Source: Acanthamoeba castellanii str. Neff (lineage: Eukaryota; Discosea; Longamoebia; Acanthamoebidae). From it: a DNA stretch of 64,000 nt. The notes under the pieces are model-generated. The model did no database searches, was not told the DNA's origin, and saw nothing but the letters and a program-made list of their open reading frames with translations. Shown piece by piece: positions 17,112-24,560 of this stretch. Each line of letters starts with the position of its first letter. Position 1 is the stretch's first letter. A program made the translations under genes and the position numbers. The stretch lies in contig NW_004457611.1 in the NCBI RefSeq assembly GCF_000313135.1, forward strand, positions 213,074-277,073. Direction: 5' to 3'.

Positions 17112-20100
17112 ATGGCCACGGCAGTCAGCGTGGAGGGCAGCACCTTCACGCTCCTCATTGACAACTACGACTCCTACACCTTCAACCTGTTTCAGTACTT
17201 GGCCGAGGTCAACGGCCGCCCGCCCTGCGTCATCCGCAACGACCAGCTCACATGGGAGGCCCTGCAGGCCGTCCTGCCTCACTTCCACAACGTCGTCATT
17301 AGGTAAGGAGCCCGCACTCCAACATCTAACGTGAAGGCAAGCTTCTCAACCTCTCACCTTACGCCTGGTGCACTTTCCTGCCCCCCTTCTTCAGCCCCGG
17401 TCCTGGCGTGCCGTCCAACAGTGCAGGTGCGCATCTTGATCTTGCGCCAAAAATCAGGTGTTGGAATGACGAATCTTTTGCGATTTGTTGTTGGTGCAGA
17501 TTTCGGCGTGTGTGAACAGCTGCTGCGTGAGGCCGAGTTGCCCGTCCTCGGCGTTTGCCTGGGCCACCAAGGCCTTGCCCACGTGTCCGGCGCCGAGGTA
17601 CCATGGGCTCCTCCCCCCATCAATGGCACCCCTTTCTTTTCCTCACAGGCCAGAGAGCGATCGTTCAGGTGGTGCGGGCGCCTCGTGTGGCGCATGGGGT
17701 GGTGAGTCAAGTGCAGCACACCAACGATCCACTGTTCCAGGGCGTGCCCCTCTCCTTCAAGGTACGCGTACTAGCCACATTGCGCCATCCATCTACGCAC
17801 ACGCGCGCGCTGATCTTGTTTGGACCTAAACGCGCGCGCGCTTATCATCTGGTGCAGGTGGTGCGCTATCACTCATGGACGGTCTCAGACGCGCCCGCGT
17901 TCGGTCAGCACCTGGAGTGCATCGCGCGCTCCGTTGACGACGGGTACCCTCCACTTGTCCACTCACTGTCTGTTATAACAGCGGTAGAGCTGTGCACGTG
18001 CCGGCGCACCCATTGGGACTGGCTCACCCATGACTTGGTGCAGGTTGGTGATGGCGATCAGGCACAAGGCGCGGCCCATGTGGGGCGTGCAGTTCCATCC
18101 GGAGTCTGTCTGCACCGAACACGGCAAGACCATCCTCCGGAACTTCCGCGACCTAAGCCGGCGGCATCGCGCACACGTGCCTGCAGCCGGTGCCCCTCCT
18201 CTCTCCACCCCGACTTACCTCGTGCCGCCTTCCCGGTATGCTGCCGCCCACCACGAATGCATCTGCCTGCCTGGCCGTGTTATCAGGGCACTTGGCCACG
18301 ACCTTGGCCCGGCTGCTAACACCGGTGGCCGCCCTCCCAGACCGATTCAAGAGAATGCATTCCCATACCGCCTGAGGTGGCGGCGATTGGCCACCGACGC
18401 GCCTAGCCACGAGGTATATACCGCCTTTGCGCGCAGCTCGACATTTCTTCACACGAGCGCGTGGTGTCATTTGGCTAACGTCGTCGCCTTTTCGGGAATC
18501 ATCAAACGCTTGTTGTGGCGCCAGGTCTTCTGCAAGCTGTTCGCGGACAGCCCAAAGTGCTTCTGGTTGGATTCCTCTCGCACCGATTCCCAGGCGTGCA
18601 GGTGAGCCCTGCTCTAGTCCCCATGTGGTGCTGTGCAAAGCTTGCTTGTTATGGGTGCCTCTGTGTCTCACCTCCTCTCTGTGCGCGGTGCGCGTTTTCA
18701 TATGTGCCGTGCGTGCGGTCAGGTACTCGTACATGGGTTCGTGTGACGGCCCACATGCCTTCTACACATCGTATTCCCTGGCTCAGAGGGAGGTCACCAC
18801 GTGGAAGCGACGAGGAGGCCAGGTCCAGCAACGCGCATACCGACTGGCAGCCGACCAGTCCTTCTTTGACGTTGTCGACCGCAAACTCGCCAAGCGCAAG
18901 TGTCCCATCGGTACTCCACACGCCACCGGTGGTGGGGTACCCATGCCGGCGGTACCCGACTTACTGAAGGCGCCATTTATTTGTGACGCGCGCGCGCGCG
19001 TGCAGACAAAGACTTGCCATTCGATTTTGTGGGCGGGTTCGTGGGCTACTTTGGTTACGAGATGAAGCACGAGGCTGGGGCCTTTCCCGATCTCCCCTCC
19101 ACAGCTCAAGTATGCGCCCCCCCTTCTCCCTCGCTCTCTTTTGCGGCCAGCCAACCCCCTCACGACCTGTCCTTCCCGCCGCGTGCAGGCAGACGCGCCC
19201 GATGCTGCGTTCGTCTTTGCCGATCGGGTGGTGGCGTTTGACCACGTCGCCCGCAGCGTGTATGTGATGTGCCTTGGCAAAGAGGCCCGCGGCACTGGCG
19301 AAGAAGGAGGGGCAGAGGAGCGGGCCAGCCGGGAATGGTTCGCCCAGGTCGAGCAGTCCTTGGCGTCGGACCCGAGCGCCGCCACGAGCCCTCGCCACAC
19401 GTCTCCGTCTGTCCAGGACAACGCGGAGCAGCAGCCGCCCGTGCCCTTTGCATTGCAGCGGCCCTACGAACAGTACAAGGGTGCGTTGCGTTGGCTCCCT
19501 CCCTTTATATATATATATATATATATATTATCTCATCTCAATAATGCTGCGCCGGCCACGCGCTCACCCTTTGGCACCCCTTGGCGGTTTGATGTCAGAC
19601 GACATCCGGGCGTGTCTTGAGGAAATCGGCAGAGGGGACAGCTACGAGCTCTGCCTCACCAACAAGATCACCACCCCCTTGAGGTTCGTCTGCTGCTGCT
19701 GGTGGTGGCTGGTGGCTGGTGGTGGAGATGAACTATCCTACGTATCCTACATCGGGCGGGCTCTGACCCCATGCAATGACCACAGGCCCGATCCGCTGGG
19801 GCTGTACCTGCGGCTGCGGGAATCCAACCCGGCGCCCTTCGCCTCGTTCCTGCGGCTCGAGGAGGACCTCCACATCCTGTCGTCGTCCCCGGAGAAGTTC
19901 CTCAGCGTCGACAATGCTCGTACGACCATTCCCCTCCTCCCTCCTCCCTCCTCCCTTTTTTTTTCTCTCAAGGGCCCAGCACCAACCACTCCCGCCTCTG
20001 TTTTTCTTTTCTTTTCTTTTCTTTTCTTGCTTACGCTGATGGCTCCCAGGTACGGTGGAGTGCAAGCCCATCAAGGGCACCACGCCTCGCGGGCGCACCC

Positions 20101-23100: not shown

Positions 23101-24560
23101 CGTGCCGCGGAGGAGGAGCGGGCGGCGCTGCTGCCGGTCAAGCGCCGGCTGCGGGTGCATTGGGTGGTGGGCATGCTGGGCCACAAGGACCACTCGGCCT
23201 ACCTCCGCTCCATTCTCGTGCCGCCTCATCATCATCACCATCACCAGCAGCAGCAGCAGCAACAACACGGAGGAGGCCATGATGTCTCGGAGGCGATCAG
23301 CTTCGTTGAAGTGCGGCCCAACGTAGATTGGCTAAAGCCCTTCCCGCCCGCCCAGCTCCAGGTATGCTTCTTCTCATCTAATTTTCTGTTGTTCTCGCGT
23401 GCGTGGCCTGACGGTCGCTGTCTATGGATCCACAGGAGTTGGCGCGGGAGGTGGTGGTGATGGCCCAAGGGAGGGGACGCGCCTCGACCTCGGCGGGATG
23501 CAGGTGGTCCCATCGCTGGATCACGTGCTCGGCCAGATCGACGCCCGGGAAGCCACGGTACTCGCCACACTCGCACAACCTTTCGCCCAGAGCCGAACGA
23601 ACTGACTCTGTTGCCCCCCCCCAAACGCTCGGGCAGGGAGAGGCGGTGCTGAACGTGGTGGTGGCCTGCGGTTCGCTCCACCTGTGCGGCAACGTGCTGG
23701 CCGCCGCTCCGCCGTTCGACCTGCTCGAGACCCTCCGGTGGGAGCCGCCCGGCACGTTCGTGCTGCTCGAGCACCACCTGGAGCGCCTCGCGCGGGCGCT
23801 GCTCCACTTTGACTTCTGCCCCGACCCCGAAGCTGCCGCCCTGCTCGTGGCTCGCGTGCGCGACCAACTCCACGCCATCGTCGCGCGCGAGAAGTGGGCC
23901 GAGCAGCAGCAGCAGCAGCAGCCATCGGTACGTCGCGTGCGCGTGCTCGTCGGCGCCGACGAACGGATCGAGGTGCAGAGCGTGGAGATCGACTCGTCGC
24001 CCATCGTCACCGACCTGGCCTTCCTCCGCGGCCTTTCGCCGACCACGTCATCGACCACGCCCAGCACCACCACCACCACAATCTCTACGTTGGCTCCGCG
24101 CACCACCGCGGTGAAGGTGAGGGCGGCTCGGGCGCCGGTGCTGCGGGACGACCCGTTCCTGCGGTGGAAGACCACACACCGCGAGGCCTATGCGCGCGCC
24201 CTCCGCGACGTGCGCTCGGCCGAGGCAGCCGCCCACGCGACTGAGGTGGCGGACGACGTCGTCCTCTACAACCAGTGGGGCCAGGTCACGGAGACCACCA
24301 TCGCCAACATCGCCATCGTGCGGCCCCGCAAGATGATGCCGACGAGGAGGACGAACCCGAGCGAGGAGGAAGAGATGGAGGTGGTGACGCCGCCAGTGGC
24401 GTGCGGCCTGCTCGAGGGGACGATGCGGCGGGCGCTGGTGGCGGGTGGGTGGATGGTGGAGGCGCCCATCACCCTCGAAGACCTCGGGAGCGCGCAGGAG
24501 ATCCTCCTCTTCAACTCGGTGCGAGGCGTCTACCGCGCCCAGCTCCTCCCGCCCCCTTGA
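17112..24560 (+). CDS. Multifunctional folate enzyme: PabA-PabB-FolC-PabC fusion
   Basis: One intron-rich reading path carries four folate activities. PabA glutaminase (17112-about 18170): exons 17112-17302, 17395-17426, 17500-17597, 17654-17761, 17858-17943 and from 18044, with [22 protein letters not shown] (Cys nucleophile), RYHSW and VQFHPES (His/Glu). PabB (about 18525-21123): [45 protein letters not shown] and [14 protein letters not shown]. FolC (about 21270-23705): [17 protein letters not shown] (P-loop), [42 protein letters not shown] and [11 protein letters not shown]. PabC, a fold-type IV PLP lyase (23706-24560): [20 protein letters not shown] (probable PLP lysine) and [15 protein letters not shown]. 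No stop separates the domains; the PabB/FolC linker and FolC start share an exon, as do the FolC end and PabC. Two frame breaks lie in FolC (about 22975 and 23475). Predicted: chorismate to pABA, then glutamylation of dihydropteroate and folates. Confidence 0.88.
19506..19529. repeat. (TA)n microsatellite in folate-gene intron
   Basis: Twelve TA units in the intron following the PabB exon that ends in RPYEQYK. Confidence 0.85.

Follow-up and report, generated by a model that had tools for sequence, protein, structure and literature searches.

Does a single gene of Acanthamoeba castellanii encode four enzymes of the folate pathway on one chain? The question is raised by a 64,000-nucleotide stretch of the str. 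Neff assembly (contig NW_004457611.1, positions 213,074 to 277,073 of the forward strand; the whole stretch is called the window here, and positions are counted from its first letter), in which an original prediction, made from the letters alone, had placed PabA, PabB, FolC and PabC in this order, on one strand and in one gene. Fusion is frequent among folate genes. At the DNA level there is good support for a single gene joining the four, and we put at about 80% the probability that the locus is one eukaryotic gene encoding a single protein of ~1535-1577 residues with four enzyme domains. The start codon (ATG at 17112) and the stop codon (TGA ending at 24560) were verified at these exact positions on the plus strand, and the parts of the gene are as follows.

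17112 to 24560, plus strand: whole gene, PabA-PabB-FolC-PabC, from ATG to TGA, 27 to 29 exons depending on the splice path
17112 to 18146, plus strand: PabA (glutaminase, class I GATase), residues 1-201, 6 exons; Cys in GVCLGHQ, His and Glu in FHPE
18411 to 21124, plus strand: PabB (aminodeoxychorismate, ADC, synthase), residues 255-738; Lys in PIKGT
20556 to 20670, plus strand: GC-AG intron within PabB, which keeps an 11-residue stretch in frame
20981 to 21583, plus strand: single open frame across the PabB/FolC join, with an optional intron at 21125-21235
21236 to 23702, plus strand: linker (from 21236) and FolC domain (from ~21332), residues ~771-1270, carrying a 15-residue FolC stretch
22938 to 23000, plus strand: first frame change in FolC, near 22985 (or an alternative acceptor at 22948)
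23436 to 23557, plus strand: second frame change in FolC, near 23478 (or a 47-nucleotide intron at 23457-23503, or a retained intron at 23558-23636)
23637 to 24560, plus strand: last exon, from the terminal strand of FolC (15 residues) directly into PabC
23703 to 24557, plus strand: predicted PabC (ADC lyase, Aminotran_4); pyridoxal phosphate (PLP) lysine position in FLRWKTT

The four domains and their joins

The spliced model was obtained by dynamic programming and then built by hand using conserved motifs; the automatic version (1366 positions) was replaced, as it skipped PabB exons and placed a nonsense piece in FolC. The hand-built model comprises 1555 positions, of which two are X, and its introns are of the GT-AG type in 24 of 25 cases and GC-AG in one, with lengths of 71 to 163 bases. 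Within one intron of the gene (window 21434-21506) lies a CT/CA-rich simple repeat, with 55 further matches in the genome among those listed. Bacterial contamination was rejected because introns are present across the PabA, PabB and FolC parts.

When the spliced model was searched against Pfam, five domain matches in gene order each exceeded the curated cut-off: GATase at residues 14-201 (E 2.3e-43), Anth_synt_I_N at 255-404 (E 1.3e-19), Chorismate_bind at 472-726 (E 2.7e-85), Mur_ligase_M at 809-1048 (E 4.8e-13) and Aminotran_4 at 1277-1549 (E 1.4e-24). A sixth match, Peptidase_C26 at 85-187, overlaps GATase. The PabA-PabB part passed two NCBIfam cut-offs, that of TIGR01823, an equivalog of the fungal-type single-chain PabAB (479.6 bits against 442.55), and that of TIGR00553 (334.5 bits against 328.4), and in a sequence comparison residues 12-736 aligned with the single-chain ADC synthase PDB 8hx6 at 581 bits. 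The FolC part scored 279.0 bits with NCBIfam TIGR01499 folC (cut-off 162.65), covering nearly the whole profile, and carries the P-loop TGTNGKGS and the lysine of AREKSGI (AREKxGI); its sequence comparison with the folylpolyglutamate synthase (FPGS) PDB 1fgs gave 156.5 bits. The PabC part matched PDB 3qqm (Mlr3007) at 58.4 bits and the ADC lyase 4k6n at 41.6 bits, its FLRWKTT aligning with LRHKTS of 3qqm and FKTT of 4k6n at the PLP-lysine position. The motifs GVCLGHQ, FHPE, PIKGT, TGTNGKGS, AREKSGI and FLRWKTT were all observed in the gene, and we take them to have their usual catalytic meaning. For the last exon, a structure predicted from the single sequence had a mean predicted local distance difference test score (pLDDT) of 38.5 and was not used.

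Both joins are open. The frame 20981-21583, in which PabB ends and FolC begins, has no stop codon whether the intron at 21125-21235 is spliced or kept, and the only in-frame ATGs in 20981-21431 are found at 21077, which is within PabB, and at 21368, which is within FolC and 12 residues past AAAFLRSL. At the other join, the exon 23637-24560 holds the last strand of FolC and the whole of PabC, with neither a stop nor an intron between them. The domain search of the spliced protein and the open joins thus agree with the predicted gene order on one strand.

Frame changes in FolC and the rival explanations

It had also been claimed that no stop codon lies between the domains. This holds for both joins, but the frame of the conserved FolC sequence shifts near 22985 and again near 23478, in the same direction both times. 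Two paths avoid any indel and are open to the final stop: the untypical acceptor 22948 combined with the 47-nucleotide intron gives 1535 residues, and the same acceptor with the retained intron gives 1577. The chain predicted from these indel-free paths (1535-1577 residues) would have a mass of ~171 kDa, and not the 190-200 kDa at which a band had been expected. Two full-length FolC models favour read-through by ~5 to 8 bits (164.4 against 159.1 and 158.6; 149.0 against 142.6 and 141.1). As a control for assembly indels, HSP70 genes were inspected in four of the ten contigs bearing HSP70 matches. The match was unbroken across 1827 bases on C241 and on C218, and on C124 it was interrupted by 114 bases with its frame unchanged. 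The match on C207 (locus L046, ~2337-2340 and 3274-3291) had, in addition to an intron-sized gap, two frame breaks that leave no space for an intron, suggesting that residual indels are common in the assembly. Such indels are, in our view, the likeliest cause of the frame changes in FolC.

Several observations nevertheless count against a single four-domain gene. The interior of FolC requires either two frame changes or untypical splices, and the path from FolC to PabC therefore depends on an assembly error or on unusual splicing. The three possible readings score 279.0, 279.7 and 276.2 bits with the folC profile, which does not discriminate between them. The model also requires one GC-AG intron (20556-20670). 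The two HSP70 breaks on C207 are opposite in direction, and that gene may itself be decayed. The PabC part falls under the NCBIfam cut-offs, its best group being PRK07546 with 88.5 against 222 bits, and the curated PabC equivalog was not reached (pabC_Proteo, 22.9 against 176.85 bits). Furthermore, FolC could still draw an ATG of its own from a spliced-in upstream exon.

The domains might alternatively be divided among two or three distinct, adjacent genes (PabA-PabB, FolC and PabC) whose frames run together by chance. On paper PabC could have a start of its own within the 3' part of FolC, as an unspliced open frame at 23412-24560 contains ATG codons, 23424 falling within the modelled intron 23362-23435 and 23460 within a FolC exon. 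That frame, however, still includes the last strand of FolC, which is followed by the first PabC motif after ~five residues, leaving no space for untranslated regions. On the upstream side, the stretch from PabB to where FolC homology begins contains no in-frame ATG, and in three of nine bacterial FolC loci this homology starts at AAAFLRSL, ahead of the first Met of FolC. The open joins fit poorly with separate genes, which we consider unlikely. We consider it somewhat less likely still that the frame changes are real, so that FolC has decayed and PabC is no longer produced within the chain. The two changes do fall within ~500 bases of one domain and in the same direction; yet the C207 HSP70 gene also has two breaks without intron room, one in each direction, both flanks of the first frame change align with the solved FPGS, and open splice paths are available. 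Moreover, the sole candidates found for PabC and for a FolC of the dihydrofolate synthase (DHFS) type lie in this gene, while matches to FolB, FolK and FolP have been kept in the genome. An assembly chimaera of unrelated loci is very improbable: no point in its favour was found, both joins are in frame, inside open exons and between complete domains, and the listed matches to 21000-24560 are, besides the stretch itself, all to one simple repeat.

Other folate loci and the predicted roles of the chain

If one four-domain gene is the right reading, its share of folate synthesis depends on what else the genome encodes, and the 38.4-Mb assembly (250 contigs) was searched for related loci. An adenosylhomocysteinase exon from this DNA matches PDB 6uk3, an Acanthamoeba castellanii structure, at 133 of 133 residues, making an Acanthamoeba host very probable. 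Chorismate_bind matches at E <= 0.001 were found in this gene and on contig C78, and at no other locus. The C78 locus carries PIAGT where this gene carries PIKGT, a TrpG-like frame adjoins it, and the best model for its 78-residue piece was TrpE, at 78.0 bits, far under the full-length cut-off. We take the lysine of PIKGT as the PabB residue, with alanine in its place in anthranilate synthase, and C78 was ruled out as a second PabB by PIAGT and by TrpE being the best-scoring model of a piece. By eye, the C78 locus (L030) has TrpE and then TrpG frames on one strand, possibly fused (the stretch is partly masked), and, on the opposite strand, a frame resembling tryptophan synthase alpha.

FolC-type matches were found at three loci: this gene, C156 (21-23k) and C189 (629-631k). 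The latter two bear YFRFLT and GGIFK or AGIFK, which we take to be features of eukaryotic FPGS, and their motifs differ from those of the fused FolC; the contig C156 spans just 38 kb. The other Aminotran_4 matches were on C143 and, weakly, on C124. The C143 piece scored best as a branched-chain aminotransferase (116.1 bits, against at most 38.1 bits for lyase models), which the C124 match also resembles by eye. As for the pterin branch, one frame on C94 matched FolB (86.8 bits) and the start of hydroxymethyldihydropterin pyrophosphokinase (HPPK; 23.0 bits over 36 positions, just below the cut-off of 25.7), with a match to dihydropteroate synthase (DHPS, FolP) downstream on the same strand. The idea that the dihydropteroate-forming steps lie elsewhere was thus borne out, with FolB-FolK and FolP both matched on C94. 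A second Pterin_bind locus, on C124, resembles methionine synthase by eye. The genome profile searches brought up no further candidate for PabB, PabC or a DHFS-type FolC, and there was no second copy of window DNA 21000-24560 among the 56 matches listed (one to itself, 55 in the intron simple repeat). For ADC synthase, ADC lyase and DHFS, this gene is therefore the sole candidate found. Because two FPGS-type genes exist, the fused FolC is probably a dihydrofolate synthase, rather than an FPGS, adding one glutamate; the two later glutamate-ligation steps originally ascribed to it are probably too much, the FPGS-type motifs on C156 and C189 making one step likelier. The PabC-like function is likewise a prediction, drawn from family, residues, context and the sole candidate found.

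The reaction chemistry is established for each enzyme family. In this chain, the domain order, the open frame over both joins and the kept active-site motifs are observed, and from them we infer the enzymatic roles. PabA would free ammonia from glutamine and pass it to PabB, which would convert chorismate to 4-amino-4-deoxychorismate, and the C-terminal PabC would cleave this product to p-aminobenzoate (pABA) and pyruvate. The pABA would then move to the FolB, FolK and FolP activities encoded elsewhere, giving dihydropteroate, to which the FolC domain would attach the first glutamate to yield dihydrofolate, with polyglutamylation left to the two separate FPGS-type genes. The fusion would therefore flank the DHPS step on both sides and might hold the supply of pABA and the use of dihydropteroate in a one-to-one ratio; that intermediates are handed between the activities is a guess. 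It is possible, though doubtful, that the tetrafunctional enzyme and a separate FolB-FolK-FolP protein dock, so that the route from chorismate and pterin to dihydrofolate would run on two polypeptides, with pABA passing out and dihydropteroate coming back. Since the chain would join the whole pABA branch to the post-DHPS enzyme while skipping DHPS itself, channelling between two multi-enzyme proteins becomes directly testable. This group of amoebae can cause eye infection, and humans, as is well established, have neither the pABA-making nor the DHFS activities. The fusion would also serve as a clear character for scoring across Amoebozoa. In eukaryotes, deep relationships have been traced with gene fusions as markers (PMC4224340).

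The surroundings of the gene were also noted. Upstream (window 14827-16600) there are long low-complexity open frames rich in Ser, Gln and Pro, and the next gene downstream, extending from window 24896 past 25800, encodes the decapping enzyme Dcp2, with DCP2 box A and NUDIX. Elsewhere, the window holds a tRNA-Phe (GAA) at 8174-8246 on the minus strand, a region at 9951-12885, also minus, that by eye resembles the second-largest RNA polymerase II subunit, an open frame at 33642-34976 with an apparent GATA-type zinc finger (by eye), and a stretch of N at ~37400-38400.

Comparison with known fusions

In the open-licence literature, among the matches listed, FolC joined to PabB, PabC or other pABA enzymes was not described, and an exact-phrase search there for the names of such fusions gave a single match, which concerned FolP-FolC. 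The main text of the A. castellanii genome paper (PMC4053784) had no match to the terms searched, and the same gene may well stand unremarked in public Acanthamoeba proteomes. Among bacteria, 0 of 66 candidate stretches were confirmed as relatives of the PabC part and 9 of 67 as relatives of the FolC part, and at none of these nine folC loci was PabA, PabB or PabC of this gene matched at E <= 1e-4 (three of the nine loci are under 7 kb, with little flank). A FolC match was present in 285 of 299 genomes of one bacterial phylum; the longest FolC open frame among the matches listed for these genomes, at 684 residues, is too short for a four-domain chain.

PabA-PabB fusions are known, as the original prediction had stated, but its list of known fusions was too short, as PabA-PabB-PabC (PMC1971073) and FolP-FolC (PMC1274311) also exist. 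In the haloarchaeal FolP-FolC fusion, FolC is likewise fused to a folate enzyme, the partner being FolP instead of the pABA enzymes (PMC1274311). A FolB-FolK-FolP fusion was reported in fungi and Amoebozoa, including A. castellanii, and confirmed by cDNA; it too is a multi-enzyme folate protein of the same organism group, but covers the pterin branch only, and the main text of that paper has no mention of pabB, folC or pabC (PMC4224340). In Plasmodium, one bifunctional DHFS-FPGS is reported to perform both glutamate steps (PMC2877875); it is likewise a eukaryotic FolC-type protein, whereas the amoeba has separate FPGS-type genes. Like the single-chain ADC synthase (8hx6, TIGR01823), which the 736 N-terminal residues of the amoeba protein match almost end to end, the chain begins with PabA and PabB, but 8hx6 ends after PabB (702 residues) and the amoeba chain continues with FolC and PabC. 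The triple fusion PabAabc (DIP1790) of Corynebacterium diphtheriae, for which synthase and lyase activity were reported by complementation and assay, likewise unites these three pABA enzymes, PabA, PabB and PabC, in one polypeptide (PMC1971073). As described there, PabAabc is bacterial, without FolC, and consists of PabA, PabB and PabC with nothing between them, whereas in the amoeba gene FolC intervenes between PabB and PabC.

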